Below are positions 4,681 through 33,264 of a stretch of DNA of 64,000 nt, in pieces. The notes below the pieces were generated by a model. It saw only the letters and a list, made by a program, of their open reading frames with translations, was not told where the DNA came from and searched no databases. Each line of letters opens with the position of its first letter. Within the stretch, counting starts at the first letter, position 1. Made by a program: the position numbers and the translations under genes. Source of the stretch: Pseudolysobacter antarcticus (GTDB taxonomy: Bacteria > Pseudomonadota > Gammaproteobacteria > Xanthomonadales > Rhodanobacteraceae); contig NZ_CP035704.1 in NCBI RefSeq assembly GCF_004168365.1, positions 186,001-250,000 of the forward strand, in the 5' to 3' direction.

Positions 4681-4684
4681 GATC

Positions 4685-4704
4685 GGAAAGCATAGTTTGG
4701 CCAC
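4685..4704 (+). repeat. Short repeat, copy 2 (GGAAAGCATAGTTTGGCC)
   Basis: It shares 17 consecutive bases (GAAAGCATAGTTTGGCC) with the inverted copy at 6362-6380. Confidence 0.7.
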
Positions 4705-4906
4705 GCCTAAGCGTACCCTCAGGTAATCGCCTCTTGGGAGCAGTCGCGACTCCAGTATCGCCAAGAATTGCCGACAACAACTTGCTGTTTCGAGCCTCGT
4801 GGGCGTAGTAGCGTCGCGAAGTGCGGGCGCGCAAAGCATCGGCTCATGCCGGACGAGCGCGTACATTTCATCCTACGTGGGTAATTGCAATTCAATCACT
4901 TACAAT

Positions 4907-4970
4907 GCTTACCGTTCCGGTTCAGCGGCGTGCCCCGCCGCGAACCGTCCGCTCCAACCCGTTTTTAGGC
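4907..4970 (-). other. Putative attC site downstream of the RibD/DHFR-like gene
   Basis: The minus strand begins GCCTAAA four bases after the stop codon. It holds a strong hairpin at 4919-4946 (GGTTC-GCGGCG arms) with one unpaired base, an extrahelical base being typical of attC. The far end GGTAAGC is only a partial match to GTTRRRY, so this may be a degenerate site, or a plain terminator. Confidence 0.45.
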
Positions 4971-4975
4971 CGTCA

Positions 4976-5608: not shown

Positions 5609-5636
5609 GATTCTCCTCTCGCATGTTCGGATGTCG

Positions 5637-5705
5637 GCCTAAAATTTTGAGATAATCGGCATGAACCGGCTTGCCGGACATGCCTGGTTGATTGAAGGGT
5701 TAGGC
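5637..5705 (-). other. Putative attC site of the macrodomain cassette
   Basis: Minus strand: GCCTAAC at 5705-5699 overlaps the TAA stop of the macrodomain gene. CTTCAATCAA follows, then a nested hairpin (GGCATG, CCGGC arms at 5658-5684) with an unequal bulge. The far end TTTTAGGC at 5644-5637 differs from GTTAGGC at the usually conserved G. Length 69 bases is typical for attC. Confidence 0.6.
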
Positions 5706-6218
5706 CGCTGGTTCATTGACCGCAGCCTTATAGACCGCGAGATCGCTAGTGGAGAAGCAGCAGAAGACAACTTCTTGAATCGATGGGCACACACTAAGAG
5801 CCGCGCGAACAGTACTTACTGCGACCATGGCAGCCAGCTCAATTGGATAGCCGTATATGCCGGTGCTGATGCTCGGAAAGGCAATGGATGTAGCTTGATT
5901 TTTTGCTGCAAGTTCTACTGCACGACGGTAGCAAGAAGCTAGAAGCTCGGGCTCATCGTTCGTGCCACCCCGCCAGACCGGACCTACTGTATGAATGATG
6001 TACTTAGCGAGAAGCCGATAGCCTTTGGTTAGCTTTGCTTCGCCGGTCTTGCACCCTCCCAGGAGGCGGCACTCGTGCACCAACTCTGGGCCGGCGGCTC
6101 GGTGAATTGCCCCATCAACGCCGCCGCCGCCCAAAAGCGAGGAGTTCGCTGCGTTGACTATGGCGGTGACTGACAACTTCGTGATGTCAGCTTGGATGAC
6201 ACTAAAAGTTGCAGGCAT
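5700..6218 (-). CDS. Macrodomain protein, ADP-ribose deacylase/hydrolase type
   Basis: 172 residues, one complete macrodomain of the YmdB/O-acetyl-ADP-ribose deacetylase type. Visible motifs: [20 protein letters not shown] with the key Asn and Asp, [16 protein letters not shown] (the substrate loop), [11 protein letters not shown], and [12 protein letters not shown] (phosphate loop). Family members remove acetyl or ADP-ribosyl groups from ADP-ribose or proteins in the cytoplasm. Its stop codon is embedded in an attC-like GCCTAAC box, and its ATG lies 10 bases after a perfect GTTAGGC, marking it as a cassette gene. Macrodomains are known cargo in phage- and integron-associated islands, where they may counter NAD- or ADP-ribose-based immunity; that role is inference. 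Confidence 0.92.
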
Positions 6219-6228
6219 TTCTTAAGCG

Positions 6229-6283
6229 GCCTAACTTTTGAGCTATGCGGGCGCTGCCGCGAAAGTTGAAGTTTACCGCATGG
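6229..6283 (-). other. Putative attC or attI boundary upstream of the macrodomain cassette
   Basis: Minus strand: CTCAAAAGTTAGGCCGC carries a perfect GTTAGGC core (6235-6229), preceded by a GCGG...CCGC hairpin. The distal box near 6283 (GGTAAAC) is poor, so this may be a truncated attC or the array boundary. A very similar string (CTCAAAATTTTAGGCCG) occurs at the next site. Confidence 0.5.
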
Positions 6284-6361
6284 AGTCGCAGCGATCCGCT
6301 TGACCGAATAGTAAAGTTACAAGGCTTTATGATCACCGATGCTAGAGACATGGGCCAAAAC

Positions 6362-6380
6362 GGCCAAACTATGCTTTCAC
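6362..6380 (-). repeat. Short repeat, inverted copy 3
   Basis: GGCCAAACTATGCTTTCAC on the plus strand is the reverse complement of the motif at 4660-4704. It lies about 30 bases from the tRNA 3' end. Confidence 0.7.
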
Positions 6381-6410
6381 GCACAAATCGAAACAACTCT
6401 TTGATTGTGA

Positions 6411-6487
<77 letters not shown>

Positions 6488-6535
6488 GCGGGGCGTGCGA
6501 TGGTCGCGATGCTGGCGCAGGTTGTTGCATCACAC

Positions 6536-6550
6536 CCGGCGTTGCGCCGG
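6536..6550. other. Small inverted repeat between tRNA and rpoD
   Basis: CCGGC-GTTGC-GCCGG; a 5-bp stem of uncertain role, upstream of the tRNA gene and downstream of rpoD. Confidence 0.3.
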
Positions 6551-6583
6551 ATGGATCGTGTAGCGATGAATCGGCTGGATCGT

Positions 6584-6615
6584 GCGGAGCGATGATCCTT
6601 CAATCATCGCTCCGC
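6584..6615 (-). terminator. Hairpin just downstream of rpoD
   Basis: A perfect 13-bp stem (GCGGAGCGATGAT) with a 6-base loop starts 11 bases after the rpoD stop. No T tract follows, so it may stabilise the mRNA 3' end or act as a weak terminator. Confidence 0.6.
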
Positions 6616-6625
6616 AAACCCTAGT

Positions 6626-15813: not shown

Positions 15814-16248
15814 TTATTTGACCACCGGCAGATCAGCCTGGCGCCACGCGGCGAGTCCGCCATCGAGCCAGTACACATTCTTGAAGCCGGCTTTCACGAG
15901 TCGCGCCGCCGCGGTAGCCGAGGTCTGGCCGGTCTTGCAACACATCGCGATCGGCAGCTCCTTGACCTTGACCAGATCTTTGCTTTCCGGATCGAACTGC
16001 GACTGCGGCACGTGTTTTGCGCCGACGATATGGCCCTGATCGAAATCCTGCTTGCTCGACATGTCGATCAGCAGCGCGTCGTTGCGATTGATGAGCTGGG
16101 TGAGGCCGCCGGGCGTCAGTGATTTGTAGCCGCGAAACAGGCCGGAAACTTCGTTGCTGATCAGGATGAACAACAAGGCGACAAGCAGCATCACCAGCAA
16201 ATAATGGTTGCCGATGAATTCGGGAAGATGGTGCAGGATTTCAGTCAT
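15814..16248 (-). CDS. Membrane-anchored rhodanese-like protein
   Basis: 144 residues. One transmembrane helix at about 15-33 (YLLVMLLVALLFILISN) is followed by a single rhodanese domain: ALLIDMSSKQDFDQGHIVGA and the active loop CCKTGQTSATAAARL with the catalytic Cys. The family resembles E. coli YibN, found near secB/grxC. It may transfer sulfane sulfur or act in thiol chemistry at the membrane; the exact role is unknown. It lies upstream of secB on the same strand, 228 bases away, with a GGATAATCC string about 45 bases upstream of its start. Confidence 0.92.
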   Translation of the reverse strand: MTEILHHLPEFIGNHYLLVMLLVALLFILISNEVSGLFRGYKSLTPGGLTQLINRNDALLIDMSSKQDFDQGHIVGAKHVPQSQFDPESKDLVKVKELPIAMCCKTGQTSATAAARLVKAGFKNVYWLDGGLAAWRQADLPVVK

Positions 16249-16508
16249 CGATCAGGCCATGAACGCGGCGCAGCGGCCGCAAGAGAGCGCGGATTATCCG
16301 CGAGCTGGCCGCCGGGCGCAAAGATTGCTATCGCGAATAGATCTTGAGGGCGTGCTGTGCTGCATTGATCCAGCTGTCGAAAAAGTCGGCGCACTGGCTC
16401 ACGCAACCTTTCGCGACGCTTCGGGTACCTACACCACTTGCGCCAATCCAGCGGACTCGCTGGCGCGTGCGCCGGTTGCGAAAACTCACGGGAGGGAGAG
16501 ATCGAACA

Positions 16509-17570
16509 ATGAGGTTTCGCCACACACAACGCGTGTCGATCATGCTCGCGGGCATCGTGCTCTGGTGCGCCGGTTGCGCGTTTGCGTTCGCGCAAAAAAC
16601 GGCGGATGCGCCCGCGTTGCGGCTGCCGGCCACGAATCTTTCCGCCGACGAAACCCACGCCCGCGCCAGTCAGTTGTTGCCGGCGCCCGGGTTCGCCAAT
16701 GCTACGGTCGCGGTCAATCCGATGGCGGCGCAGGCCAAGCCGGTTGGCGAAAAAGTCTGCATCGCCTGCCATCAACTCGAGAGCGAGCATTTCACCCACA
16801 CCCTGCATGCGCTCGGATTGCACGCGGCAGCTAAGGTCGATCCGAATATTCCCGTGTGCGAAACCTGCCACGGTCCGGGTTCTGCGCATGCGGCACAACC
16901 GAACAGCAAGGGTTTGATCATCGGTTTCACGCACGACTCCGGCACACCGATCGCGTTGCAAACACAGACCTGCCTGACTTGTCACCAAGGCGGCCCGCGT
17001 GATCACTGGGCCGGTTCGATCCATCAGCGCAACGAGTTGTCGTGCAGCGATTGCCATAACCCGATGGCGAAATTTTCGTCCGAAGGCTTGATGGCAAAAG
17101 CCTCGATCAACGATACCTGTTCGCAGTGCCACAAAGATGTGCGTTTGCAGTTCAACCGGCGCTCGCACATGCCGCTGCCGGAAGGCCAGATGAGCTGCGA
17201 CGATTGCCACAATCCGCACGGTTCGCTGACCACGCCGCTGCTCAAGACCAACACCGTCAACGAGACGTGTTACCAATGCCACGCCGAGAAGCGCGGGCCG
17301 TTTTTGTTCGAGCACGCGCCGGTGCGCGAGAGCTGCTTAAATTGCCACACGCCGCATGGCTCGAATCAGGCCTCGCTGCTGCTCGAGCCGATCCCGTTCC
17401 TGTGCCAGCAATGCCACACCAACCAGGGGCATCCGAGCGAGTTGCAGACACCGCAGTCGCTGGCCAACGGCAAGCATCCCGATGAACGCCTGATGGGTCG
17501 CGGCTGCATCACTTGCCACGCGCAGGTACACGGCTCGAATGCGCCGTCAGGCCCGTTCTTCCACGAGTAG
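16509..17570 (+). CDS. Decaheme c-type cytochrome, DmsE/MtrA/PioA family
   Basis: 353 residues from ATG 16509 behind GGGAGGGAGAG; residues 1-29 are a signal peptide. Ten CxxCH haem sites are present in order: CIACH, CETCH, CLTCH, CSDCH, CSQCH, CDDCH, CYQCH, CLNCH, CQQCH, CITCH, with scattered distal His. This is the periplasmic decaheme that plugs into an MtrB/PioB barrel to carry electrons across the outer membrane. An extra segment of about 50 residues before the first haem recalls PioA-type proteins. The next gene, 14 bases on, encodes the barrel. The direction of electron flow (iron oxidation inward or respiration outward) is not decided by sequence. Confidence 0.95.
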   Translation: MRFRHTQRVSIMLAGIVLWCAGCAFAFAQKTADAPALRLPATNLSADETHARASQLLPAPGFANATVAVNPMAAQAKPVGEKVCIACHQLESEHFTHTLHALGLHAAAKVDPNIPVCETCHGPGSAHAAQPNSKGLIIGFTHDSGTPIALQTQTCLTCHQGGPRDHWAGSIHQRNELSCSDCHNPMAKFSSEGLMAKASINDTCSQCHKDVRLQFNRRSHMPLPEGQMSCDDCHNPHGSLTTPLLKTNTVNETCYQCHAEKRGPFLFEHAPVRESCLNCHTPHGSNQASLLLEPIPFLCQQCHTNQGHPSELQTPQSLANGKHPDERLMGRGCITCHAQVHGSNAPSGPFFHE

Positions 17571-17584
17571 CGGGAACGCCGACC

Positions 17585-20140
17585 ATGCTCAAACGCCAGC
17601 ACCGGATCACGCCATCTTTTTGCGCATTGCTGGGGTTATTGCTGCTGCCCGTAATGACGCTGGCCGATACCGGCGTCGGTGTGGATACATGGCGCGGCAA
17701 CAAGCTCGATCCGAACGCGGGCGCGGCGCTGCAAGCGACTGACGAACGCGGCACGAGCTGGTTGCAGCCGGGGCAACATCGCTCACCAAGCGGCAACTTG
17801 TACATGTGTCCGGCGCAACCGCCGAGCGCCGAAATCGCCGCTGACTGGGCGTATTACGGCGTGCTGCAGATCGGTTATCTCGGCACGGGCGGCGATGACA
17901 AGAACGCGTTGTGGAATCGTTATGTGAAGTGGAACAGCGGGCTCGTGCTCGGCCTGTTCGACCTGAATTTCGAGCGCGCCGCCGATGGCACTTACGCGGG
18001 AATTCGCGGCAGTCGCATCAGCGATGACGATCAGTATTACCAGGCGGTGTACGGCCGCGCCGGCAGCTACAAGATCCAGGCGTTTATCCGCGATATGCCG
18101 AACGTGCTCAGCAACGATGCGCGGCCGATCTGGAACGGCGTCGGCAGCAATAATCTGACCTTGCCGAGCACACTGGTCGCGGGCGGTAGCACACCTGCGC
18201 AAGTCGCGGCGGTATCGGCGGCCACGCCCGAACGCACGCTTGAAGTCACGCGGCAAAAACAGGGCATCGGTTACAGCGGATTTCTCACGCCGCAGTGGAC
18301 TTCATACATCAACATCACCAACGAGGAACGTCGCGGCGAACGCGCATTCGGCGGGCCGATGTATTTCAACTACCAGTTGCCGAACGACGGCGGCGCGCTC
18401 GAAACGGTCAAGCCGATCAACGACAGCACAGTCAACATCAACGCCGGATTCCGCTTCAGCGGAAAAACCTGGCGCATGGATTTCGGCTACGTCGGATCGT
18501 TCTACCGCGATGCCTACACGGGCTTCAGTTACCAGACGCCGTTCGCGTTGTATCCGGTGGTTGCGGGTGCGACTTCGGCGCCGCTCACGCAAGGCCAGTT
18601 CGCCACCGAGCCGGACAACAATTATCACAACCTGCAAGCCACGTTCACGCGCAAACTGCCGATGAACGGCGAGCTGTCGCTGACCGGATCGGCTGGACGC
18701 ATGACGCAGAACGATGCGCTGATCGCGCCGATCAATTGCCAGGGCGTGTTCGGCATCGATACCAATCACAGCGGTGTGGCGGGGCCGAACAATCCGCTGC
18801 TGTATTCGTGCGCGCAGTGGAACACCAGCGCCGCCTTGTCGCGACAAAATGCCGACATGCGCATTGATACCAGCATGCTCGATGCACGTTTCGTGCTGCA
18901 GCCGAGCAGCGATGTCAGCATGCGTGGCGGCATGAAATTCAATCGCGAGGATTATCGTAATACCTACGTCGCCTACAACCCGCTCACAGGCCAATATGGC
19001 TATCCGATCGAGAACGGTTCGCAGGGCAGCATCGTGCCGGGTCTGACCGGAATTTATGATCCGTTGCTCAATCCTTCGGCGATCACGCGCATCATGAGTT
19101 TGCCGCTGGATGAGCAAACCATCGAGAGCAATGTCGGCGCCGACTGGAAAGTTTCCGCGCACGATACGCTGGGCGCGACGTTCAATTATCGCGACTACGC
19201 ACCCAGCCATCGCGAGCGCAGCGAAGTGCGCAACAACAGCATCAAGCTGACGTGGGTCGATCGTGCGATCGACTGGCTTACCTTGCGCGCGAACTACACA
19301 TTCCTGCGTCAGTCTGGCGACAGCTACAACTACAATCCGTACGATTTTCTCTACTCCAACAGCCTGCCCGGATTCGTCGCGCCGGCTGGTGGCGTGCCGG
19401 CCTATACGGCGGAGGCGATGCGCGCTTATGACTTGTCCGATCGCGACGAGAACAAGGTCAATCTCATGGCGACGATCATGCCGCGCGAGGATATGACGAT
19501 CAGCCTTTCGCTGCGCGGCGACTGGAACAATTACGACGCGCAGATCGGTCGGAAAAAATACGACACCACGGGTTTGGCATTGCAGTGGGAATGGCAACCG
19601 TCGCCGACCACCACGGCCAGCGCGTATTACGGTCAGGATCGCTCGCGCATCGACCTCGCGAACGTAGACAATTCCAGCGCGAGTCCCGATCCGACCTTGG
19701 GTGGCGCGGCCTATCCGAATGCCGGGCGCTGGTGGGTCACCGATCGGCAAAAAAACAGCAACCTCGGCATCACGATGAATCATCAGCTCGGTCGCGTGCG
19801 CTTCGATGCGAACTGGAATTATCTGAACTCGCGCGGCTTGACCAATTATCGTTTTACCACGCCCGCCGCGCTCGCGTATTTCAGCGACGGATTGGTGCCG
19901 GGCGACGCATTTCCGGCGATGTCGTATCGCGTAAATTCGATCACGATCGGTGCGACTATTCCGCTGATGGATCGCGCGTCGTTGCGTATCTATGACTACT
20001 ACGAACGCGGTGCGATCGGCGACTGGCATTACCTCGGTTTTGATCAGGGCCTGGTCTATGATCATCGCGTTTACAGCGATGGCGGACCGCAAAGTTACAG
20101 CGCCAATCTGATCGGCTTGCTGTTGAATATCCGGTTATGA
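17585..20140 (+). CDS. MtrB/PioB-family outer-membrane beta-barrel
   Basis: 851 residues from ATG 17585, with a signal peptide ending near MTLAD. The mature N-terminus (WRGNKLDPNAGAALQATDERG) is followed by many alternating amphipathic strands rich in Tyr/Trp and Asn/Arg turns (FNYRDYAPSHRERSEVRNN, LSLRGDWNNYDAQIGRKKYD), ending YSANLIGLLLNIRL. This is a large barrel of the decaheme-associated family, longer than Shewanella MtrB (about 700) and nearer PioB. The N-terminal CxxC of Shewanella MtrB is absent. It forms the insulating sheath for the decaheme encoded just upstream. The 596-codon antisense ORF is a shadow. Confidence 0.94.
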   Translation: MLKRQHRITPSFCALLGLLLLPVMTLADTGVGVDTWRGNKLDPNAGAALQATDERGTSWLQPGQHRSPSGNLYMCPAQPPSAEIAADWAYYGVLQIGYLGTGGDDKNALWNRYVKWNSGLVLGLFDLNFERAADGTYAGIRGSRISDDDQYYQAVYGRAGSYKIQAFIRDMPNVLSNDARPIWNGVGSNNLTLPSTLVAGGSTPAQVAAVSAATPERTLEVTRQKQGIGYSGFLTPQWTSYINITNEERRGERAFGGPMYFNYQLPNDGGALETVKPINDSTVNINAGFRFSGKTWRMDFGYVGSFYRDAYTGFSYQTPFALYPVVAGATSAPLTQGQFATEPDNNYHNLQATFTRKLPMNGELSLTGSAGRMTQNDALIAPINCQGVFGIDTNHSGVAGPNNPLLYSCAQWNTSAALSRQNADMRIDTSMLDARFVLQPSSDVSMRGGMKFNREDYRNTYVAYNPLTGQYGYPIENGSQGSIVPGLTGIYDPLLNPSAITRIMSLPLDEQTIESNVGADWKVSAHDTLGATFNYRDYAPSHRERSEVRNNSIKLTWVDRAIDWLTLRANYTFLRQSGDSYNYNPYDFLYSNSLPGFVAPAGGVPAYTAEAMRAYDLSDRDENKVNLMATIMPREDMTISLSLRGDWNNYDAQIGRKKYDTTGLALQWEWQPSPTTTASAYYGQDRSRIDLANVDNSSASPDPTLGGAAYPNAGRWWVTDRQKNSNLGITMNHQLGRVRFDANWNYLNSRGLTNYRFTTPAALAYFSDGLVPGDAFPAMSYRVNSITIGATIPLMDRASLRIYDYYERGAIGDWHYLGFDQGLVYDHRVYSDGGPQSYSANLIGLLLNIRL

Positions 20141-20838
20141 AAACGACGATGAATTTTCGCTTCGCATGGCTCGCGCCGCTGCTCGCCGTATTGTCGTTGC
20201 CGACGTTCGCCGCGAGCGCGGCGACGGATTTTGTCGACCTGCGTCATGCCACCGCGATTCACGGCGACGCTGCTGCGGGTGAGGCCAAGGTTGCGGTCTG
20301 CAGCGCGTGCCATGGCGCGCAAGGCAATGCGGTCGTGCCGCAGTTTCCAGTGCTAGCCGGACAGCGCGCCGAATACATTTATCAAGCGCTGCGTGGCTTC
20401 CAGCGCCGCGCCGATCCAGCCTCGCCGATGACGCCGCAAGTGAAGGATCTGAGTGACAGCGACCTGCGCAATATCGCGGCGTATTTTTCCGCGGCTGCGC
20501 GCCACGCGGCCGTGCCGGCGACGGTCGATGCCCAGCTCGCGAACGACGGCGAGCGGCTGTTTCTCGTTGGCGATCCGACGCGTGGCATTCCGCCGTGCCA
20601 GGGTTGTCATGGTCTGCACGCGGACGGTCATGCGTTGAGCGATCGCGCCGCATTCTATCGATTGTTTCCGGTGCTGCGTGGCCAACACGCCGACTACATC
20701 GCCGCGCGTCTGGCAAGTTATCGCGACGACAAGACCCACGACACGTCGAACGCGCGGATCATGCGTGGTGTGGTCCAGAACATCGACGACGCCAGCGCCA
20801 AGGCGATCGCCGCATGGCTGTCGCAGCTCAGCGAATAA
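20137..20838 (+). CDS. Diheme cytochrome c (cytochrome c4-like)
   Basis: 233 residues; its ATG overlaps the barrel's stop (ATGA), so the three genes form one operon. A signal peptide (LLAVLSLPTFAASA) is followed by two class-I cytochrome domains, with haems at CSACHGAQGN (about residue 55) and CQGCHGLHADG (about 152), and Met-ligand-type segments after each (ASPMTPQVKDLS, NARIMRGVVQNID). Cytochrome c4 proteins shuttle electrons in the periplasm to terminal oxidases or membrane complexes. Here it is the natural partner between the decaheme conduit and the inner-membrane chain. This takes the place that PioC or MtoD holds in iron-oxidation loci. Confidence 0.95.
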   Translation: MKTTMNFRFAWLAPLLAVLSLPTFAASAATDFVDLRHATAIHGDAAAGEAKVAVCSACHGAQGNAVVPQFPVLAGQRAEYIYQALRGFQRRADPASPMTPQVKDLSDSDLRNIAAYFSAAARHAAVPATVDAQLANDGERLFLVGDPTRGIPPCQGCHGLHADGHALSDRAAFYRLFPVLRGQHADYIAARLASYRDDKTHDTSNARIMRGVVQNIDDASAKAIAAWLSQLSE

Positions 20839-20882
20839 TCATCGCGATGCGCCAGTCTGCGCAAACATTGCGCCAGGCGAAC

Positions 20883-22535
20883 TCAGCGGGCTTTGACTAG
20901 CCGCAACGCCAGCACATCCGGCGGCGGCGCAAACGTATCCGGCCGCGCCACTTGCCAGAATTTCTTGAACACCGCGTGCTCCGGCACTCCGTTGATCAGC
21001 TCGCCCGGTTCGAGAAAATTGTACAGCGCGGCGAGTGAGCGGATCTCGGTCGGCGATACGCGCCGGATCACATGCTCGGGGCCGATCTCACTCGGATGAT
21101 TCAGGCCCGATGCCGCGATCAATTCCTTCAGCGCCTTGAGCGTGTTCTCGTGAAAATTCATCACGCGATCGGCCTTGTCCGGCACCACGAGTGCGCGCTG
21201 GCGCGAAGCATCCTGCGTCGCGACGCCGGTCGGACAACGATCGGTATGGCAGTTCTGCGATTGAATGCAGCCGAGCGCGAACATGAATCCGCGCGCCGCA
21301 TTGCACCAGTCGGCGCCGAGTGCCAGCGTGCGTGCGATATCGAATGCGCTGGTGATTTTGCCGCTCGCGCCGATGCGGATCTGATCGCGCAGGCCGATGC
21401 CGACCAAGGTGTTGTGGATCAGCAGCAAGGCTTCGCGCAGCGGCGCGCCGACATGATCGGTGAACTCCATCGGTGCCGCGCCGGTGCCGCCTTCGCCGCC
21501 ATCGACGACGATGAAATCCGGCAACAGGCCCGTACTCAGCATCGCCTTGGCGATGCCGAACCATTCCCACGGATGGCCGATCGCAAGCTTGAATCCGGTC
21601 GGTTTGCCGCCGGATAAAACCCGCAGTCTAGCTACGAAACGCAGTAATTCTTCGGGCGTGTGGAACGCGCTGTGCGCGGCGGGCGAGACACAATCGACGC
21701 CGATTTTCACGCCGCGCGCGGCGGCGATTTCCGGCGACACTTTCGCCGCCGGCAGCACGCCGCCGTGGCCGGGCTTGGCGCCCTGGCTGAGCTTGACCTC
21801 AATCATTTTTACTTGCGCCGAGGCGGCGTTGGCGGTGAAACGCTCTTCGCTGAAACTGCCGTCGTCGTTGCGGCAACCGAAATAGCCCGAACCGATTTCC
21901 CAGCACAGATCGCCGCCGTTTTCGCGGTGGTATTGCGAGATCGATCCTTCACCGGTGTCGTGATAAAACCCGCCGCGTCGCGCACCTTCGTTGAGCGCGC
22001 GGATCGCGTTCGCCGACAATGCGCCGAAACTCATCGCCGAAATATTGAACACACTCGCCGCATACGGCTGCGTACAATCCTTGCCGCCGATCGGTACGCG
22101 AAAATTGTGATCGGCGATTTTCGCCGGCGCGAGCGAATGGTTGATCCATTCGTATTGCGGCTGGTACACGTCGAGTTCGGTGCCGAACGGGCGCAGATCC
22201 AGCGCATTTTTTGCGCGCTGATAAACGATCGAACGTTGCGCGCGCGAGTACGGCACTTCGTCGGTATCCGACTCGACCAGATACTGCCGAATCTCCGGCC
22301 GGATCGCCTCGAAAAAATAACGGAAATGCGCCAGCAGCGGATAGTTGCGGCGCAAGGTGGTGTGATGCTGGCCGATATCCCAGATGCCGACAATCACCAG
22401 CGCCGCGCTGATCGCCGCAACGATCCACCAGCCGATGCCAAACAACAACAGGCTCAGCGACAACAGCAGAACCAGCACGCAAAAGGCAAACGCAAAATAA
22501 CGCGAGGGCAGCGGATTTTTCATGGCATGGCTCAT
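20883..22535 (-). CDS. Membrane-anchored FMN-binding glutamate synthase family protein
   Basis: 550 residues from MSHAMKNPLPSRYF (22535; ATG 22523 is an alternative). Two hydrophobic helices at about 15-60 anchor it. The rest is a GltB-type central/FMN domain: NISAMSFGALSANAIRALN, GEGSISQYHRENGGDLCWEI, AKPGHGGVLPAAKV, FIVVDGGEGGTGAAP, and an Fe-S-type cluster CIQSQNCHTDRCPTGVATQD. It lacks the amidotransferase domain, so it cannot be a classical glutamate synthase. Related orphan proteins are widespread but poorly characterised; a redox role is likely. Convergent with the cytochrome operon (44 bases between stops). Frames extending into the next gene are not real. Confidence 0.92.
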   Translation of the reverse strand: MSHAMKNPLPSRYFAFAFCVLVLLLSLSLLLFGIGWWIVAAISAALVIVGIWDIGQHHTTLRRNYPLLAHFRYFFEAIRPEIRQYLVESDTDEVPYSRAQRSIVYQRAKNALDLRPFGTELDVYQPQYEWINHSLAPAKIADHNFRVPIGGKDCTQPYAASVFNISAMSFGALSANAIRALNEGARRGGFYHDTGEGSISQYHRENGGDLCWEIGSGYFGCRNDDGSFSEERFTANAASAQVKMIEVKLSQGAKPGHGGVLPAAKVSPEIAAARGVKIGVDCVSPAAHSAFHTPEELLRFVARLRVLSGGKPTGFKLAIGHPWEWFGIAKAMLSTGLLPDFIVVDGGEGGTGAAPMEFTDHVGAPLREALLLIHNTLVGIGLRDQIRIGASGKITSAFDIARTLALGADWCNAARGFMFALGCIQSQNCHTDRCPTGVATQDASRQRALVVPDKADRVMNFHENTLKALKELIAASGLNHPSEIGPEHVIRRVSPTEIRSLAALYNFLEPGELINGVPEHAVFKKFWQVARPDTFAPPPDVLALRLVKAR

Positions 22536-22594: not shown

Positions 22595-24931
22595 TTACGG
22601 CCCGAAACCATCGTAGAAAATTTCGTCGCCATGCAGTTTCCACCACACCAGCAAATCGGTCAGTGCCTGCGGTGGCTGGGCCGGCGCGGGCTGGCCGGCC
22701 TGATTGGTCTGGTTGATGCCATGGCAACTGTTGCAGGCGCGGATTTCGCCGGGCTGGAATTCGATCCAGTAACGCTCGCGCACCACTGTAGCGTTCGGCG
22801 GTAACGTCGACGATCCGCATGTGGTCGACGGCGCCAACGATTGCCATGCCATAGGTCTTTGCGCAGGCACAAACAGCGCAACCGATCCATCGGTCGCAAT
22901 GAACTGGCTGCCCGGCACGGTCATGTCGCCGGGCATGTTGAACTGCAGCGCGTGCGTATCGTTCAGCGGCCTCGCAATAGGGCGGCGACCGGGCAACGCA
23001 TTCGCGATTGTGCCAGTGGAGGGGTACAAGCCGCGCACCTGATCGGCCTCGAAAAACTGCATACGATCGATGCAATACAGCGGCGGTCCGGTGTAACCAA
23101 GCAGGTTGCTGATCGTCTGCGCGCCGCTCGGCACGCTGAGATTGTACGGTTGCTGCTGGTCGGCGCGATCACGCGAGGTGGCGTTGCGTATCACCACCAG
23201 CGCGAGATTCTGGCTCTGCAGAAACTGCTGCATTTGCGCCACGCTGACACCATTGTTCGGATGACTCTGATTGAAGTTGTCGAACACGGTTTGTTCGGGC
23301 GTGCCGCTGATCGGCGCCTGCGCCGTCTGCGGTGGCGTGGCGCGCGCAACGACCTCAACCGGTTGCAGTTCCCACAGCGCTCCGCTGTAGTTCACGGTGC
23401 CGTTGGCTTGTCCGCTGATGTTCGAGGCGTAGTTGTATTTGAGGCCGGTTTTGCTGATGCCGCCGGTGATCAGTGGATTCGCCGATGGCACGTATTCGGT
23501 CGCGCTGTTCTGGCTGATCGCAGTCAAAGTATACAAGTGGAATTGATAGTTGCTCGGTGGCAACGGCAACGGACCGATATTGTTTTCTCCGTCCGGAATG
23601 TTGGCGAAGGCTGCAATCAAACTGCCGTCGCTCATCGGCAACGGATCGCGAAAATGGCCGATGTTGTATGGATAGGATGCACCGGTAAAAAGATAGGTGC
23701 TGGTTTGCGCATCGGTAATGTAAGTGACCGTCACCGCGTTCGGATTCAGCGATGGCGGTGAAGTGAGCGCCACGATCTGACCAGCGCGATGCATCTGAAA
23801 CTCGGAACCGTCCACACCGAAATAACGCCCGGTTGTGGTCGGATCTTCGCGGATCTGGAAAAGATTGTTGATCGATTTCTGATTGATACGGCCCGATGCG
23901 GCGGCGCTGAAATCGATCAGGTTGGTATCGTTGGTGTAATTGCGGCTGAAACTTTGCTTGAGCTCATGGCGGCCGATGTGATTGAGAGTTTCCTCGTTGC
24001 TGCCATCCTGATTCACCGCCCAAGGAAAAAACTGGTTGATCTCGAAGCCGTTCAACACGCTGCCGACGACGTGCTTGATCGGCTCCGGAAACAACTCGGT
24101 CGCGTTCGTCGTAGTCGCATTCGCGGCCTCGGAGGCGTAGTCGAATGGCATGAGTGGCGTCGGTGTACTTGGATCGTCATTGACGTCCTGGTTCATGTGA
24201 TCCCAGCGCGAAAATACCAGCCGGCCAAAACTGTCGACGAACGGATTGAACGATCCCGACGGCGTATTTTCGATCAGGCCGAGCGCACCGCTGGTGGCAT
24301 CGAGACGCCACAATCCGCTGTTCGCCGGTTGTGCGCGATATTCGTCGTAGATCGGATACAGCGCCATCGCGCCGTTGCGTGGTCGATCGCTGACAAACAC
24401 GATGCTACCGTCGCTCAGATAATTCGGCTGGATATTGTTGAATGGCAGCGCGGGTTGATTCGCCACCTTCTGCACGATCGGTGTTTGTCCGGCGATCACC
24501 TGTTGCAGATTGATGATTTCGTAAAGCTGCCAGTTGTAATTTTCGGCACCGCCGACACTTGCGGGCGCACCGACGACCATGCTGAAAATCGCCTTGCTCG
24601 CATCAAACGATATGGCCGGATCGCGCACCGCAATCGCCTGATTGCCGATCATCAACGTGCCACTAACGAAGTTGCCGTATCCCGCTTCCTGAGTAAGGTA
24701 ACGCAGTATGCCGGCGGTCGACATCAACACCAGATCGCCGCCGCGCGGTGCGGCGAGCGTGGTCGGCAGATGATTCGCGAATGGCGACGAGATATTCATG
24801 TTCACATCGTCGTGCCCCGTCGGCACTTGAGTCACGAACAGAATCGGGTGCGGCACGACGGATGGTGACGCGGTCGCGGCGGCGCTGCTGCAAAAAAATA
24901 CTGCGGCGAATAGTCGTTGCATGTTTGACAT
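22595..24931 (-). CDS. Exported monoheme protein, hydrazine-synthase-alpha-like, NGF-type C-terminus
   Basis: 778 residues from ATG 24931 behind GGAGTG; signal peptide LFAAVFFCSSAAATASP. The N-terminal half reads as a TolB/propeller-like fold (PILFVTQVPTG, IQPNYLSDGSIVFVSDRPRN, FGRLVFSRWDHMNQ), as in proteins annotated with hydrazine-synthase alpha domains; this assignment is by resemblance. Near residue 735 it has one c-type haem site, RACNSCHGINQ, after ERYWIEFQPGEI. It ends HGDEIFYDGFGP, a variant of the shared C-terminal motif. Hydrazine synthesis itself is unlikely, since no partner subunits are present. It is 59 bases upstream of the FMN protein, same strand, so possibly one unit. Confidence 0.85.
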   Translation of the reverse strand: MSNMQRLFAAVFFCSSAAATASPSVVPHPILFVTQVPTGHDDVNMNISSPFANHLPTTLAAPRGGDLVLMSTAGILRYLTQEAGYGNFVSGTLMIGNQAIAVRDPAISFDASKAIFSMVVGAPASVGGAENYNWQLYEIINLQQVIAGQTPIVQKVANQPALPFNNIQPNYLSDGSIVFVSDRPRNGAMALYPIYDEYRAQPANSGLWRLDATSGALGLIENTPSGSFNPFVDSFGRLVFSRWDHMNQDVNDDPSTPTPLMPFDYASEAANATTTNATELFPEPIKHVVGSVLNGFEINQFFPWAVNQDGSNEETLNHIGRHELKQSFSRNYTNDTNLIDFSAAASGRINQKSINNLFQIREDPTTTGRYFGVDGSEFQMHRAGQIVALTSPPSLNPNAVTVTYITDAQTSTYLFTGASYPYNIGHFRDPLPMSDGSLIAAFANIPDGENNIGPLPLPPSNYQFHLYTLTAISQNSATEYVPSANPLITGGISKTGLKYNYASNISGQANGTVNYSGALWELQPVEVVARATPPQTAQAPISGTPEQTVFDNFNQSHPNNGVSVAQMQQFLQSQNLALVVIRNATSRDRADQQQPYNLSVPSGAQTISNLLGYTGPPLYCIDRMQFFEADQVRGLYPSTGTIANALPGRRPIARPLNDTHALQFNMPGDMTVPGSQFIATDGSVALFVPAQRPMAWQSLAPSTTCGSSTLPPNATVVRERYWIEFQPGEIRACNSCHGINQTNQAGQPAPAQPPQALTDLLVWWKLHGDEIFYDGFGP

Positions 24932-25119
24932 GAAATCACTCCCCTGGCAAAGGCGCTCGCGCAGCGATATTTCAATCGGTGCCATGGCGCTGTCTCCCAT
25001 TCAACGCTCTGTCGGAACGATAACGAACGTCGATTCGTGCGGACGCAGGACAGACGGCATGGCGCTGCCGACAACTGGAGGTATGCGACAGCGCAAGGCC
25101 CCGCGGGTAAACTCAGCGC

Positions 25120-26729: not shown

Positions 26730-29700
26730 GTGCATCGTTGCGTAAGATTGCTTGTAGACGGGCTTTCGAAAAACGCGGTTTTGATCCCGGTTTTTGCTCT
26801 TTTCTTGCAGCTCGTTTTCGCCGCCCCCGTGTGGGCCGTGACCAACACCTGGTCGTCGGGCGGCGCACTTGCGACGGCGCGCGCAGACCACACCGCAACC
26901 CTGCTGCCCTCGGGCAAGTTGTTGGTGGTGGGCGGAGCTAACATTGGCTCCGCCGCTACCGCCAGCGCCGAGCTCTACGATCCGGCAATGAACACCTGGG
27001 CGACCGCAAGCGCGCTTGCCACCGCACGCTATCACCACACCGCGACGCTGCTGCCCTCGGGCAAGGTGCTGGTGGTGGGGGCAACAACGGCAGCAACATT
27101 TTTGCCAGTGCCGAGCTGTATGACCCGCAGACGAATACGTGGTCTGCCGCAGGTCAGCTCGCGACCGCGCGCTACTTTCACACCGCCACGCTATTGCCCT
27201 CGGGCAAGGTGCTGGTGGCAGGAGGCAATAGCGACCCTTTCACTGCGCTCGCCAGTGTTGAGTTGTACGACCCGGCAACAGACACGTGGGCGCCGGCTGG
27301 CGCGCTCGCGGTCGCGCGCGAATTACACACCGCGACTCTGCTGTCCTCGGGCAAGGTGCTGGTCGTGGCGGGATTAGACAGCGGCGTTTTCGCCAGCGCG
27401 GAGCTGTACGACCCGGCGACGGACACCTGGACGAGCGCAGGCGCGCTGTCGACCGGTCGCTACCTTCACACCGCCATTCTGCTGCCCTCGGGCAAAGTGT
27501 TGGTGGCCGGGGGCACCAGCAACGGCAGCGGCGCTCTCGTAAGCGCCGAACTGTACGACCCTGCCACGAACACTTGGGCGGTCGTAGGCGCGCTCGCTGC
27601 CGCGCGCAGAAAGCACACCGAAACCCTGCTGCCTTCGGGCAAGGTGCTGGTGGCGGGTGGCGACGACGGCAGCAACATTCTCGCCAGCGCCGAGCTCTAC
27701 GACCCGGCGACAGACATGTGGTTGCCCGCGGGCCCGCTTGCTGCCGCGCGCAGACAACACACCGCGACCTTGCTGCCCTCGGGCAAAGTGCTGGCGGTGG
27801 CAGGTTCCAACGGCAGCAGTCTGGGCAGCGCCGAACTGTACGACCCGGCGATCAAGACGTGGGCCAACGCCGGCGCGCTCGTGATCGGGCGCAGCCTGCA
27901 CACCGCGACTGTGCTGTCTTCGGGCAAGGTATTGGTGGCAGGGGGAGAGAGCTTGAACAGCAATTATCCCACCGCCGCCGAACTCTACGATCCAGCGTTC
28001 AACACATGGGCGGCGGCCGGCGCGCTCGCGTCCGGGCGCCGCTTTCACACCGCGACCCTGCTGCAATCGGGCAAGGTGCTGGTGGTGGGAGGCTTCAACG
28101 GCAGCAGCTATCTGGCCAGCGTCGAGTTGTACGACCCGGCGACGAACACCTGGGCGGCCGCCGGTGCGCTCTCAACCTTGCGCGGTTACCACACCGCGAC
28201 CCTGCTGTCCTCGGGCAAGGTGCTGGTGGCAGGTGGCTACAATGGCAGCTATCTGGCCAGCGCCGAGCTGTACAACCCGGCGACGAATACGTGGGCGTCC
28301 GCCAGCGTGATGACGACCGCGCGCTACGTGCACAGCGCAACACTGCTGCCCTCTGGCAAAGTGCTGGTGGCGGCGGGCGCAAACAACAGCAATCTCAGCA
28401 GCGCCGAACTCTACAACCCGGCGACAAACACTTGGGCCGCCGCCGGTGCGCTCTCAACCTCGCGCAGTTACCACACCGCGACCTTGCTGCCCTCGGGCAA
28501 GGTGCTGGCGGCAGGAGGTACTGTCAGCAACATCAGCGGCGCTTTCGCCAGCGCCGAGCTATACGAACCGGCGACGAACACGTGGTCCCCGGCTGGCTGG
28601 CTGGCCACCGCGCGTGATCGCCACACGGCAACCCTGCTACCCTCAGGCAAGGTGCTGGTGGCGGGCGGCGTCGACAGCAACAGCGCTATCGCCAGCGCTG
28701 AGCTGTACGACCCCGGCACGAACACATGGGGTACCGTCCGTACGCTCGCGAACGCGCGCGATTTTCACACCGCGACCCTGCTGCCCTCGGGCCAGGTGCT
28801 GGTGGCGGCGGGCGACAACGGTGGTTTTCTCACGACTGCCGAGCTGTACGACCCGGCGATAAATACAGGGTCGCCGGCCGGCGCGTTCTCGACCACGCGC
28901 TACACCGCCACCGCCACGCTGCTGCCTTCGGGCAAGGTGCTGGCGACGGCAGGCTACAACGGCACCTATCTCACGAGCGCCGATTTGTACGATCCGGCGA
29001 CAAACAGCTGGGCGGCGGCTGGCGCGCTTGCGGCCGGGCGCTACTCGCACGCAGCGACCCTGTTGTCCTCGGGCAAAGTACTGGTGAGCGGAGGCCGCGA
29101 CACCACCAGCAGCTATGCCCTCAACGGCGAACTGTACGATCCGGCGACGAATACGTGGGCAGCTGCCGGCACGATGGCGATCCCACGCCAATCCCACACG
29201 GCAACGCTGCTTCCCGCAGGCAAGGTGTTGGTCGCGGGAGGCAACAACGGCACCTATCTCGTCAGCGCCGAGTTGTACGACCCGGCAACATCCTCCTGGA
29301 CGGCCGGTGGCGTGCTTGCGGTCGCGCGCATATTCCACAGCGCGACCTTGCTGCCATCTGGCAAGGTGTTGGTGGCTGGGGGTTACAACGGCAGCTCTCT
29401 CGCCAGCGCCGAGCTGTACAACCCGGCGACGAACACGTGGGCGACCACAGTCAACCTCGCTACCGCACGCTACGGCCACAGCGCGACCCTGCTGCCCTCG
29501 GGCAAGGTGCTGGTGGCGGGTGGCTACAATGGCAACTGGCTCGCCAGTGCCGAACTCTACGACCCGGCGACAAACACTTGGGCGCCAGCGGGTTCGCTCG
29601 CGACCGCACATCAGCTTCACACCGCGACCCTGTTGCCATCTGGCAAGGTGCTGGTTTCGGGGGGCTTCAGCGGTAGCATTTATCTCGCCAGTGCCGAGCT

Positions 29701-30277
29701 GTACGATCCGGCGACTAACACGTGGGCGGCGGCTGGCACGCTTGCGACCCCGCGCGACGTTCACACCGCAACTCTGCTGCTCTCGGGCAAAGTGCTGGTA
29801 GCGGGGGGCAACAACGGCAGTGGTTATCTCGCCAGTGCCGAGCTGTACGATCCCGGCCTGGCCCCGCTAACCACCCTGCGACCGGGTTTGAGCGCAGTCA
29901 ACGCCTTTCTGCTGCAAACCAGCGCGCTGGCAGCGACCAGTGCCGGCAGCAGTACGAACGCCGGCGCGATCGTCAGCACTGGATTCATGCCCTTGCTTGA
30001 AGCAAGCGGCGGAGCCAGCAACAATTCCGCGAGCAATGTGCCGGTGTTTCAAGTGCAACGCATTGACAACGATCAGATGCGCTTCATTGCGAAAAGCGAA
30101 ACCGTCAACCTGACCGACACCACATTTAGCGGCAGCGCTGCCGCGCTGGCCGGATTCCCGGCCGGCCCGGTGCGCGTGCGGGTGTGGGTCAACGGTGTGC
30201 CGAGCGCGGCGCTTTACTCACGCCTGATCAATTGCGGCGTAGCGGATACGCTTTTCTGCAATGGTTTCGAACCCTAG
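26730..30277 (+). CDS. Giant secreted Kelch-repeat protein, frameshifted in a G5 tract
   Basis: About 1182 residues if one base is restored. The GTG at 26730 follows AGGGGGA and gives a signal peptide (VFALFLQLVFAAPVWA). The frame breaks at the G run 27077-27081: after GKVLVV the repeat expects GGNNGSNIFASAELYDP, found one frame away. From 27194 the frame is open to the stop. About 20 Kelch/galactose-oxidase-like units of about 54 residues follow the pattern ELYDPATNTWAAAGAL...HTATLLPSGKVLVAGG. The last 130 residues differ (VNAFLLQTSALAATS) and end DTLFCNGFEP, the shared C-terminal motif. As assembled, the product from the first start would be truncated. The cause could be sequencing error, decay or slippage. 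Confidence 0.82.
27077..27081 (+). other. Frameshift site: run of five G
   Basis: Codons upstream read GTG CTG GTG GTG GGG. One extra G here would restore the Kelch reading frame across both halves. Confidence 0.75.
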
Positions 30278-30494: not shown

Positions 30495-30600
30495 GCGCTT
30501 GCCGGTAGTGCTCCTGCATTTGCGACTCACAGAGATGTGATGAGCACCGACCGGCGTCGTCGGCGCCTGCGGCCCACATTCGCGCCATCCTTGGGGCTTA
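30495..30600 (+). repeat. About 105-bp dispersed repeat, copy 2
   Basis: Partner of the copy at 26257-26362. Its last 30 bases (CATTCGCGCCATCCTTGG) also resemble sequences just after the other two delta-60 genes (33450-33480 and 36333-36362), so the tail of the repeat is linked to the 3' ends of these genes. Confidence 0.7.
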
Positions 30601-33264
30601 CTCAAAGCCGTTGGCAAAAATGCCGTCGTTGCCGCTCAGGTAAACCTGCACCGTACTTTCGATCAGGCCGCCTGATCCGTTGTCTTGGCCTGAGCTGACC
30701 TGTCCGCGCGTACGCAGGTAGAAGGTCTGGTTGAGCTGCGGCGTGAAACCGGAATAGCGCCAACCATTGCTGATGCGCTGCATGGTGCCGACGGCTCCAT
30801 ATGTGCTGCCAGCTAGCGAAAACAGTAGTTGTGGTGGCAACGACATTTCCGGCCCGGCCCCGGCGCGGGTCCAGACAATCGCGCTACCACCGGCGGTGTA
30901 GCCCACAATTCTTATCGACTGCAACGCGGCTTGCGGCATGCTGAAACGCGCGATGTAGTTGCGAGGAAGCGCGCCCATGAAGGTGAACTCACCGCCCGCT
31001 ACCACCTTGCCATCGGACTGTAACGCTATCGCCTTGACGTAACCCATCCCGTTTATACCGTTCGCGTTTGGATCGAAGCCTGTATCCAGGCTGTCATCGG
31101 CGTTCAGACGCGCGATGTAGTGACGTGCGACGGCGCCACCGCCGTTCGGCGACAACGAGAAAAAATCCCCGCCCAGCACTATCTTCCCATCGGGCTGCAG
31201 TGCCAGCGCGTAGACGGTTTCGTTTGCGTTCGGATCGAAGGCCGTGTCCAGACTACCATCGGCGTTCAGACGCGCGATGCGGTTGCGCGTAACCGCGATG
31301 CCCCCGTTCGGCGCAAGGGAGGTGAACTGACCGCCCACCACCAGCTTGCCATCGGGCTGCACCGCCAACGCAATGACTCTGTCGTTCGCGTTCGGATCGA
31401 ATGCCGTGTCCAGACCACCATCGGCGTTCAGACGCGCGATGCGGTTGCGCGTAACCGCGACGCCCCCGTTCGGCGATAACGAGGTAAAATCCCCGCCAAG
31501 CACTATCTTCCCACCGGGCTGCAGTGCTACCGACTTGACGTAGGAGCTTGCGTTCGGATCGAACGTCGAATCCATACTGCCATCGGCATTCAGGCGCGCG
31601 ATGCTGTTGCGTGTAACGGCGCCGGCACCGTTCGGCGACAGCGAGGTGAAAAGGCCGCCCAGCACCAGCTTGCCGTCGGGCTGCAGCGCCAGCGCGTAGA
31701 CGTCGTCGTTTGCATTCGGATTGAATGCCGTGTCCAGGCTGCCATCGGCATTCAGGCGCGCGATGTATTTACGTACGATAGCGCCAGTGCCGTTCGGCGA
31801 CAGCGAGGTGAAGTTCCCGCCCAGCAATATCTTGCCATCGGGTTGTATTGCCAGCGCGTAGACGGTGTCGTTCGCGTTAGGATTGAATGCCGTATCCAGA
31901 CTGCCATCGACATTCAAGCGCGCGATGTGGTTGCGTGTGACCGCGCTGCCGCCGTTAGGCGAAAGGGTGGTGAAATCGCCGCCCAGCAGAAGCTTGCCAT
32001 CGGGTTGCATTGCCAGCGCGTAGACGGGTCCATTTGCGTTCGGATTCGATGTCGTGTCCACACTTCCATCCGCATTCAGGCGCGCGATGCGGTTGCGTGT
32101 GATCGTGCCGCCGCCATTCGGCGACAGGGATGTGAAATTACCGCCCAGCAGCAACCTGCCATCGGACTGCGGTGCCAGCGCGAGCACGGCGTTGTTGGCG
32201 TTGGGATCGAATGTTGTATCGACGCTGCCATTGGTGTTCAGGCGAGCAACGTAATTGCGCGTGATAGCAGCCCCGCCGTTCGGCGAAAAGGAGGTGAAAA
32301 AGCCGCCCAGCAAAAGCTTGCCATCGGGTTGCAGCGCCAGCGCGGAGACGAAGCTGTTCGCGCTCGGGTTGAATGCCGTGTCCAGACTGCCATCGGCATT
32401 CACGCGCGCGATGCGACTGCGCGATGTGGTGGCGCCGCCGTTCGGCGACAAAGAGGTGAAAAAGCCGCCCAGTACGAGCTTGCCATCGGGCTGCAGCGCC
32501 AGCGCTGTTACTGTGTTGCTCGCATTCGGATCGAATGCCGTGTCGACGTTGCCATCGGTATTCAGGCGTGCGATGTGGTTGCGCGCAATGGCGCCGCCTC
32601 CGTTCGGCGAAAGTGAGGTGAAATTACCACCCAGCAACAGCTTCCCGTCCGGCTGCAGCGCCAGCGCATCGACGGCGGCATTCGCGTTCGGATTGAAGGC
32701 CGTGTCAATGGTGCCATCGATATTCAGGCGCGCGATGTTGTTACGTGTCATAGCGCCGCTGCCGTTCGGCGACAGCGAGGTGAACTGGCCGCCCACCACC
32801 AGCTTGCCATCCGGCTGCTGCGCCAGCGCATAGACGTAGCTATTCGCATTGGGATCGAACGCCGCGTCGACACTGCCATCGGCATTCAGGCGGGCAATGC
32901 GGTGGCGTATATATGCGCCGACCTGGTTAAATGTGCCGCCGATTACGATGCGCCCGTCCGCTTGCACAGCGATGACATCGACGGTGCTATCGACATCAGT
33001 GGCAGCAAAGCTCGCATCCAGGCTTCCATCGACGTTCAATCGCGCGAGGTGGTTGCGGGTCTGCCCATCGATCATGGTGAAATCGCCGCCGACGAGGGTC
33101 TTGCCGTCGGGCTGCACCACCAGCGCACTGACGGGGTTGTTCGCATTCGGATCGAAGCCATCGTTGGCGTTCTGCGCGCAGCTGACCGCCGGCATCGTTA
33201 GCAATGCCAGTAGCAACAGACACGGACCAGCCAAGAATCCTAAAACGCGTTCGTATCTCACCAT
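30598..33264 (-). CDS. Secreted delta-60-type repeat protein, paralogue 1
   Basis: 888 residues from ATG 33264 ([20 protein letters not shown]) behind TTGGGGAAA; the frame to 33342 is an artefact. Signal peptide, then 14 tandem units of about 55 residues of the form [49 protein letters not shown], which matches delta-60 (propeller-like) repeats. The last 115 residues form a conserved domain ([30 protein letters not shown]) and the end is [14 protein letters not shown]. No enzyme motif. Closest to paralogue 2: both have the odd unit DTTSNPNAN at the same place (unit 8). Likely surface or extracellular; role unknown. Confidence 0.92.
   Translation of the reverse strand: [888 protein letters not shown]

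Follow-up and report, generated by a model that had tools for sequence, protein, structure and literature searches.

Trans-outer-membrane electron conduits of the MtrAB, MtoAB and PioAB types are familiar systems, and homologues of PioAB have been described as widespread across the Proteobacteria (PMC10654088; papers given by PMC number are drawn on in excerpt throughout). The locus considered here is an operon of three genes, termed A, B and C, which lies on the + strand at positions 16509–20838 of a window of 64,000 nucleotides from Pseudolysobacter antarcticus (RefSeq assembly GCF_004168365.1, contig NZ_CP035704.1, positions 186,001 to 250,000) and codes for a decahaem cytochrome, an MtrB/PioB-type barrel and a dihaem cytochrome. 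Pseudolysobacter is placed in Rhodanobacteraceae, order Lysobacterales. Among described systems, PioABC of Rhodopseudomonas palustris TIE-1 likewise has a decahaem and a large barrel (~87 kDa for PioB, PMC6831781; ~91 kDa for mature B), no MtrC, no CymA and a high-potential periplasmic partner. It differs in that A lacks the N-terminal extension of PioA, a feature said to be rare outside Rhodopseudomonas (PMC10654088), and in that the coded partner of the window is a dihaem cytochrome c4 and not a high-potential iron-sulfur protein (HiPIP) such as PioC, although a HiPIP gene is adjacent to the cassette in 11 of 49 relatives.

MtoAB(D)-CymA of Sideroxydans and its kin shares with the window the decahaem, the large barrel and the lack of both an outer-surface cytochrome and a barrel CXXC. 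However, Mto-type sets run as A, B and a four-haem CymA-like gene, with a monohaem gene before A in three loci (L150, L151, L171), and such a CymA-like tetrahaem was not found in the host genome with PF03264. The A and B proteins of MtrCAB (Shewanella, PDB 6r2q) are homologous to those of the window and the 26-strand fold is common to both, but the window's set has no CXXC, no MtrC or CymA was found for it, and its A lies outside the MtrA group. The likeness to DmsEFAB consists in the DmsE family model TIGR03508, which gives A its name; no DmsAB was found for the window's set, and A does not group with DmsE-type sequences. C resembles cytochrome c4 of the Pseudomonas stutzeri type over both haem domains and both Met residues, and differs in being coded with a conduit. 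The A-B-C set is filed here as a variant of MtrAB-type sets and is assigned to none of Pio, Mto, Mtr and Dms.

Computation provides the gene set, the haem and Met ligands, the predicted fold of the barrel, the phylogenetic position, and the linkage to carrier and ccm genes in relatives. With modest confidence, the operon is read as a conduit that has neither MtrC nor CymA, connects to periplasmic carriers of high potential and probably serves to take up electrons. Its architecture is well supported; the direction and the substrate are inferred.

The operon and its three proteins

An earlier note, made from the sequence of the window, had described a tightly coupled porin-cytochrome operon. Upon re-reading, its coordinates and haem counts, the 14 bases that separate A from B and the ATGA by which B and C overlap were all borne out. 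Its assignment to MtrAB-type trans-outer-membrane conduits also stands, as a ten-haem cytochrome is coded beside an MtrB-type barrel and the two are homologous to MtrA and MtrB.

A (16509–17570, + strand, 353 aa, ten CXXCH) is a periplasmic decahaem of the MtrA/DmsE/PioA superfamily, with 253 bits against TIGR03508 (cut-off 192) and an E-value of 3.8e-59 against MtrA (6r2q_A). By eye, a ribosome-binding-site-like GGGAGGGAGAG stands 5' of its ATG and a Sec-type signal at its N-terminus; the first haem Cys is residue 84. The ten CXXCH and 11 further His residues are invariant in 53/53 aligned cassette rows, which offers enough ligands for ten bis-His haems, and the His may pair with the haems in this manner. 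The closest named relative of A comes from a metagenome-assembled genome (MAG) called Pseudolysobacter, with 94% identity over residues 1–267, where the contig ends. In the PDB, the molecule of 6r2q chain A is listed as ‘Cystathionine beta-synthase’, though its sequence is that of the MtrA decahaem.

B (17585–20140, + strand, 851 aa) matches the Pfam family MtrB_PioB (PF11854) at an E-value of 6.5e-87 and MtrB of 6r2q by sequence at 1.2e-17; against TIGR03509 it scores 222.5 bits, below the cut-off of 240. The AlphaFold2 model, made from a 40-row alignment (mean pLDDT 85.8, pTM 0.82), has 26 strands of at least 10 residues, with 324 residues in presumptive extracellular loops and 35 in periplasmic turns. 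In Foldseek, 6r2q_B (MtrB) is the top hit of this model (E 4.6e-39; TM 0.89 by target and 0.68 by query) and the runner-up follows at E 1.2e-9. B is thus predicted to have the 26-strand barrel fold of MtrB (PMC7198977), a strand number that published PioB and MtoB models also have (PMC10654088).

Two features of the barrel sequence were followed across relatives, which comprise a Lysobacterales-type cassette and its sister group. The first is a Cys pair, Cys385 and Cys409 (codons at 18737–18811, + strand), in predicted extracellular loop 6. In alignment A1, which holds 40 of 116 barrels, the pair sits in one extracellular loop in 29/29 cassette rows and 0/11 sister rows, and on this alignment it is a mark of the Lysobacterales-type cassette. 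The second is an N-terminal CXXC, the first Cys of which is required for ferric reduction in MtrB of Shewanella oneidensis (Wee et al. 2014, told in PMC12175506). It is not present in B. Among barrels of at least 600 aa (16 of 18 MtrC-labelled, 8 of 9 four-haem-labelled and 25 of 27 sister loci), it is present in 16/16 of the MtrC-type and 7/7 of the DmsF-type, and in 0/8 of the four-haem-type (Mto-type), 0/25 of the sister and 0/2 of the alphaproteobacterial ones; 2/58 cassette barrels have it, both inside the first 24 residues. Median barrel lengths are 852 aa for the cassette, 897 for the sister group, 820 for the four-haem type, 699 for the MtrC-type and 667 for the DmsF-type, so that length does not discriminate cassette from Mto-type barrels.

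C (20137–20838, + strand, 233 aa, two CXXCH) carries a Sec-type signal by eye and aligns over residues 43–229, both haem domains included, with cytochrome c4 (1etp, E 1.9e-32). In an alignment of 56 rows over 180 aa (the window, 1etp and 54 relatives, of which eight belong to the sister group), Met98 is kept in 56/56 rows and Met209 in 52/56, and both align with the Met ligands of c4. As judged from this alignment, C is a cytochrome c4-type protein with two class I haem domains and His/Met ligation through Met98 and Met209. An assignment to PdsA, the dihaem shuttle of some Mtr sets, was rejected, with 38.6 bits against a cut-off of 330 for NCBIfam NF049874.

Phylogenetic position of A and B

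Decahaem cytochromes were collected from sampled genomes of the order, the class, the phylum and a second class, and the labels MtrC-type, DmsE-type (a molybdopterin gene near) and four-haem CymA-like (Mto) were taken from neighbour genes, not from names. Trees were made from subsets in which near-copies were thinned and synteny types kept (110/152, 39/152, 46/156 and 37/116 rows); L013, whose contig ends in A, was left out. In the 110-row tree of A, 35 cassette rows form one clade (99), and together with the sister group they make up 52 rows (99). The sister group comprises Azonexus, Aromatoleum, Sideroxydans STC_76, Opitutae, Methylococcaceae and one Lysobacterales MAG. The window is excluded from a 32-row group (support 90) that holds 18/19 MtrC-linked rows, with L218 elsewhere; as a whole, rows linked to MtrC do not make up a single clade (7 changes). 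DmsE-type rows sit among Shewanella-like MtrA rows, L206 having its molybdopterin gene on the opposite strand, and the four-haem-labelled rows L155, L158, L161 and L162 scatter in the tree.

In approximately unbiased (AU) tests on 39 rows, a union of the cassette with DmsE-type rows was rejected at p 1.2e-4 (3.3e-5 with sister rows) and one with Mto-type rows at p 1.0e-5 (0.0115 with sister rows). The barrel tree of 37 rows has the same split (100), and barrel scores against B are at least 179.8 bits inside the lineage, except for L066 at 39.3, which is cut by a contig end, and at most 84.3 bits outside. Both trees, that of A and that of B, thus place the cassette and its sister group in a lineage apart from MtrA, DmsE and Mto-type sets. 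The earlier note had called the layout closer to Pio/Mto loci than to Shewanella Mtr; the layout is indeed not that of Shewanella Mtr, but Mto is a different clade.

Identities to A over the haem domain are 52.8–58.2% for 17 sister rows, 36.6–40.0% for 7 DmsE-type, 36.6–42.8% for 19 MtrC-type and 38.3–42.4% for 9 four-haem-type rows. When four alphaproteobacterial decahaems were added, L250 (54.6% identity) and L251 (56.7%) fell inside a 20-row clade with the window (100/98), which also takes in nine sister-group rows, and two fell outside. L250 and L251 are 447 aa, with a long N-terminal part and a monohaem cytochrome gene before A. PioA-like homologues have been defined by an N-terminal extension with a hydrophobic stretch, with ~48 kDa expected in Rhodomicrobium (PMC6831781); that stretch is not clear in L250 and L251. 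A clade of the cassette with these two alone was not rejected (AU p 0.065), nor is it shown. Given two N-extended PioA-like decahaems, both unnamed, in the wider clade, a link of A to Pio is plausible. Against it, sister-group rows are as close to A as L250 and L251 are, and A is without the N-terminal extension.

Gene neighbourhoods and the direction of electron flow

A scan of genome contigs gave 80 loci, 53 of the Lysobacterales type, a few of them labelled as Burkholderiales, Rhodospirillales or Pseudomonadales MAGs, and 27 of the sister group. C follows B in 50/53 Lysobacterales-type loci (in one, C is cut by a contig end), and the contigs of the remaining three stop earlier. A-B-C is, by gene order, a conserved cassette, and the c4-like partner in third place, which the earlier note had found notable and whose identity holds, is the rule in this clade and no oddity. 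Side cases of gene order include L024 and L030, in which two A-B-C cassettes stand in tandem and the second barrels have diverged to 49% and 45% identity with B, and the sister loci with C (L058, L060, L077, L078), in which two C-cluster dihaem cytochromes occur in a row.

Linkage was counted in the 49 complete loci, with L013, L026, L032 and L055 excluded for their contig ends. In 34/49, a gene for a high-potential carrier (azurin, HiPIP or plastocyanin-like) lies on the same strand, inside the cassette or at most 2 kb from it: azurin in 18 loci, HiPIP in 11, six of which have a plastocyanin-like gene too, and a plastocyanin-like gene alone in 5. Family names of the carriers come from Pfam on representatives and from matches to solved HiPIPs (E 2.4e-20) and azurins (E 1.6e-46). 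The ccm genes (B, C, E, F or H) occur in 24/49 loci and flank the cassette on both sides in 16/49. Six further loci included three with a carrier and one with ccm, and two of the six repeat loci already counted (L160 and L232 repeat L022 and L035). In another phylum, an azurin-cluster gene directly follows A-B, without C, in 6/14 Opitutae loci; the Opitutae/Verrucomicrobiota sets in question are L065, L068, L070, L074, L081 and L085.

Regulatory genes are also found by the cassette, a TetR-type gene just upstream in 17/49 loci (one representative being AefR-like) and a gene for an extracytoplasmic function (ECF) sigma factor upstream in 9/49. These regulators would suit a defence against metal or redox stress, in which Fe(II), Cu(I) or the like would be oxidised outside the cell by the conduit, and so be kept from entering or made less harmful, with little energy gain; so would the link of a second R. 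palustris HiPIP to divalent metals (PMC10304953). Such a role is nevertheless distinctly unlikely, as none of the seven flanking genes scanned in the window is a metal-resistance gene, and the tie to ccm and respiratory carriers is no less compatible with a role in respiration.

The host genome (4.73 Mb, two contigs, completeness 100) was searched with profiles, and B is its only MtrB/PioB match. The CymA family (PF03264, NapC/NirT/CymA) had no match in it, with a positive control in E. coli. No MtrC-type gene was found beside A-B in the window, nor in the genome, where PF22113 had a single match in an eight-haem protein at C2:970–972 kb. CXXCH-type patterns numbered 494 against 219 in a reversed control, and the first 100 of the 494 places were inspected. 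The absence of MtrC and CymA, stated for the window in the earlier note, thus extends to the genome as far as profile searches reach. An MtrCAB set with an unlinked MtrC was rejected as far as these searches reach, the genome search having yielded no MtrC and the only other multihaem protein with PF09699 being an octahaem. This eight-haem cytochrome (L098, G000:C2:966000–977000, at ~4566–6620) has a hydrophobic N-terminal stretch and is the only other protein found by PF09699 in the host.

DmsAB was not found beside A-B in the window, and the genome search yielded no enzyme of DmsA grade: among the four molybdopterin enzymes, which include formate dehydrogenase and NuoG, the best scores 164 bits against a TIGR02166 cut-off of 777.7. 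A dimethyl sulfoxide (DMSO)-reductase set, the case that the earlier note had named as a threat to its view, is rejected on the tree, the AU tests and this search; DmsE-type rows belong to another clade and no DmsA was found in the genome. A related possibility is that the conduit supplies an enzyme coded elsewhere, either secreted or at the outer surface, in the way that DmsEF serves DmsAB. It has this precedent in the superfamily, and a molybdopterin-enzyme gene stands next door in L206, L208–L210, L212 and L214, but no such candidate appeared among representatives of 31 neighbour clusters, and the molybdopterin enzymes of the host are formate dehydrogenase, NuoG and two far under the DmsA cut-off, which makes it very improbable. 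Five of the six decahaem-barrel sets of one Shewanella-like genome (G982, L206–L210) have a molybdopterin-enzyme gene near.

In the favoured reading, B would form a barrel of 26 strands around the ten-haem wire A, which is presumed to assemble within it. Without an MtrC-type cap, the outermost haem of A would be exposed outside, beneath the long surface loops of B. On the periplasmic side, A would exchange electrons with its putative partner C, a His/Met cytochrome c4 of presumably high potential, a role that HiPIP, azurin or plastocyanin-like carriers would share in relatives, and the conduit would be wired to the presumed cytochrome bc1/terminal oxidase (or denitrification) end of the chain. 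Electrons would enter from a reductant outside the cell, for instance Fe(II) or reduced humic matter; the inward direction and the substrate are the least certain parts of this proposal. The wiring is argued from the failure to find MtrC, the CymA family or DmsA, from the missing CXXC and from the high-potential one-electron carriers coded with the cassette in relatives, c4 being the one in the window. Because no CymA-type quinol dehydrogenase was found, the bc1/terminal oxidase end is the most likely point of attachment for the conduit, and a chain ending in such carriers would suit inflow from Fe(II) or reduced humics to oxygen or nitrogen oxides over outflow from menaquinol. Reported potentials are 450 mV for PioC, 50–450 mV for HiPIPs of neutrophiles and 276–416 mV for Ferrovum c4, with lower values for c4 of neutrophiles (PMC10879576), and ubiquinone-8 is the sole quinone in Dokdonella aquatica (PMC13178995).

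The same parts could also run outward: respiratory electrons leaving bc1 would pass C and then A, and would reduce Fe(III), Mn(IV), humics or a similar acceptor outside the cell. MtrAB or MtoA/MtrB without MtrC does reduce extracellular Fe(III) in S. oneidensis (PMC4245776), the TIGR03508 match of A carries the DmsE name, a report on a feammox culture describes CymA- and MtrB-like proteins in its Rhodanobacter (PMC11366258), and C-like dihaems occur near MtrC-type sets. Export is nonetheless unlikely in view of the genome searches, which found neither CymA/NapC nor MtrC, the lack of CXXC in B, the high-potential carriers as neighbours in relatives, and the separate phylogeny. Outward running, metal detoxification and an unlinked enzyme, taken together, have a little under an even chance.

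Several observations weigh against a conduit for uptake wired to high-potential carriers. The cassette of the window itself adjoins neither ccm nor a small carrier gene, 15/49 complete relatives have no azurin, HiPIP or plastocyanin-like gene beside it, the sister group has C in only 4/27 loci, and the linkage counts come from related genomes and hence are not independent. Mto-type barrels likewise have no CXXC (0/8) and are long (median 820 aa), and A is without the extension of PioA. C-like dihaems also lie near MtrC-type sets (L138, L140, L154, L219, L222), so that a dihaem partner alone is no mark of uptake. MtoA has an Fe(II) oxidiser as its source, yet together with MtrB it sustains the reduction of Fe(III) in S. 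oneidensis (PMC4245776); anatomy therefore cannot fix direction. Moreover, the genome searches with PF22113 and PF03264 omitted A, despite hmmscan scores of A above the cut-offs of both (47 and 30.5 bits, respectively); such searches can miss a relative, and the absence of MtrC and CymA is not proven.

Surroundings of the operon and meaning for Lysobacterales

Upstream of A, the minus strand holds genes for a rhodanese-type protein (15814–16248, PF00581), which is a divergent neighbour outside the conduit, for SecB and for GpsA, and downstream of C a glutamate-synthase-domain gene is also on the minus strand; with opposite-strand genes on both sides, A-B-C forms a stand-alone three-gene unit. 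A promoter scan of the operon region gave 1 site against 1.3 expected, and terminator-like sites over 16150–21000 numbered 8 against 4.8 expected, none directly after C. The rhodanese neighbour (cluster c21) is common to the Tahibacter-type relatives L012, L013, L014, L023 and L027 and serves as a synteny anchor. Elsewhere in the host, one locus (L096, G000:C2:1844500–1854500) carries ECF sigma, zf-HC2 anti-sigma, S8 protease and plastocyanin-like genes without A-B-C, and a similar gene group precedes the conduit in Tahibacter- and Dokdonella-type loci. The host genome also has one HiPIP, away from A-B-C, and three copper-protein matches. The shared rhodanese and the survival of the L096 group without A-B-C would fit rearrangement after vertical descent. 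A recent transfer of the cassette into the genome is not favoured, given the rhodanese neighbour common to Tahibacter-type loci and the L096 group. A plasmid search returned one Photobacterium record.

Other genes of the window were recorded in passing. Two genes downstream of the operon, at 22595–25000 (minus strand), lies the gene of a large protein with one CXXCH, which scores 23.4 bits for the hydrazine synthase alpha middle domain, below the cut-off of 26.6. Three tandem genes at 30598–33342, 33478–36144 and 36361–39012 (minus strand), perhaps a local duplication, code for proteins of ~865 aa, in each of which DUF5122 beta-propeller repeats were scored over 13 stretches. Adjoining them at 27194–30277 (+ strand) is the gene of a protein of ~1,020 aa with many kelch-type repeats.

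The A-B-C branch is one of several kinds of conduit in Lysobacterales, as the order also holds MtrC-type sets (L165, L169, L176). A genome of the window's own family (L171, G259) has an Mto-type set in the order monohaem, decahaem, barrel and four-haem. PF11854 scores above cut-off in 123/398 sampled genomes of the order, a count that covers all kinds of MtrB, MtrC-type and Mto-type included. Earlier reports named MtoAB-like and MtrB-like proteins in Rhodanobacter (PMC11366258), Cyc2 and a porin-multicopper oxidase cluster in a Rhodanobacter (PMC5566968) and porin-cytochrome genes in humic-lake Verrucomicrobia (PMC6344600). The excerpts of PMC8805035, PMC10654088, PMC5566968, PMC4245776, PMC6344600 and PMC11475568 describe no such Lysobacterales set, and in the literature surveyed, again in excerpt, no description of the cassette in Lysobacterales was found, the Rhodanobacter MtoAB- and MtrB-like proteins aside. 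What seems to be new is the definition of the branch by its own place in both trees, a fixed c4, exchangeable carriers, a seat among ccm genes and the marks of the barrel. MtrC or CymA is often taken as the sign of extracellular electron exchange; the branch seemingly has neither, and the curated barrel model TIGR03509 misses B by 18 bits, and thus the branch is easily overlooked.

We suggest, tentatively, that it may be a third, CymA-free MtrAB branch, wired to high-potential carriers and often inside a ccm operon, which lets ordinary Lysobacterales take in outside electrons. Uptake of this kind during aerobic or nitrate respiration would amount to a hidden lithoheterotrophy in supposed plain heterotrophs, a thought to be entertained with some doubt, and Dokdonella, Tahibacter, Stenotrophomonas, Pseudoxanthomonas, Luteimonas and Lysobacter are the holders that this same tentative proposal would name. 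If uptake is true, Fe(II), reduced humics or electrodes could be sources of energy for common heterotrophs of soil and water, and the direction of such conduits might be predictable from the adjacent carrier and the barrel CXXC.

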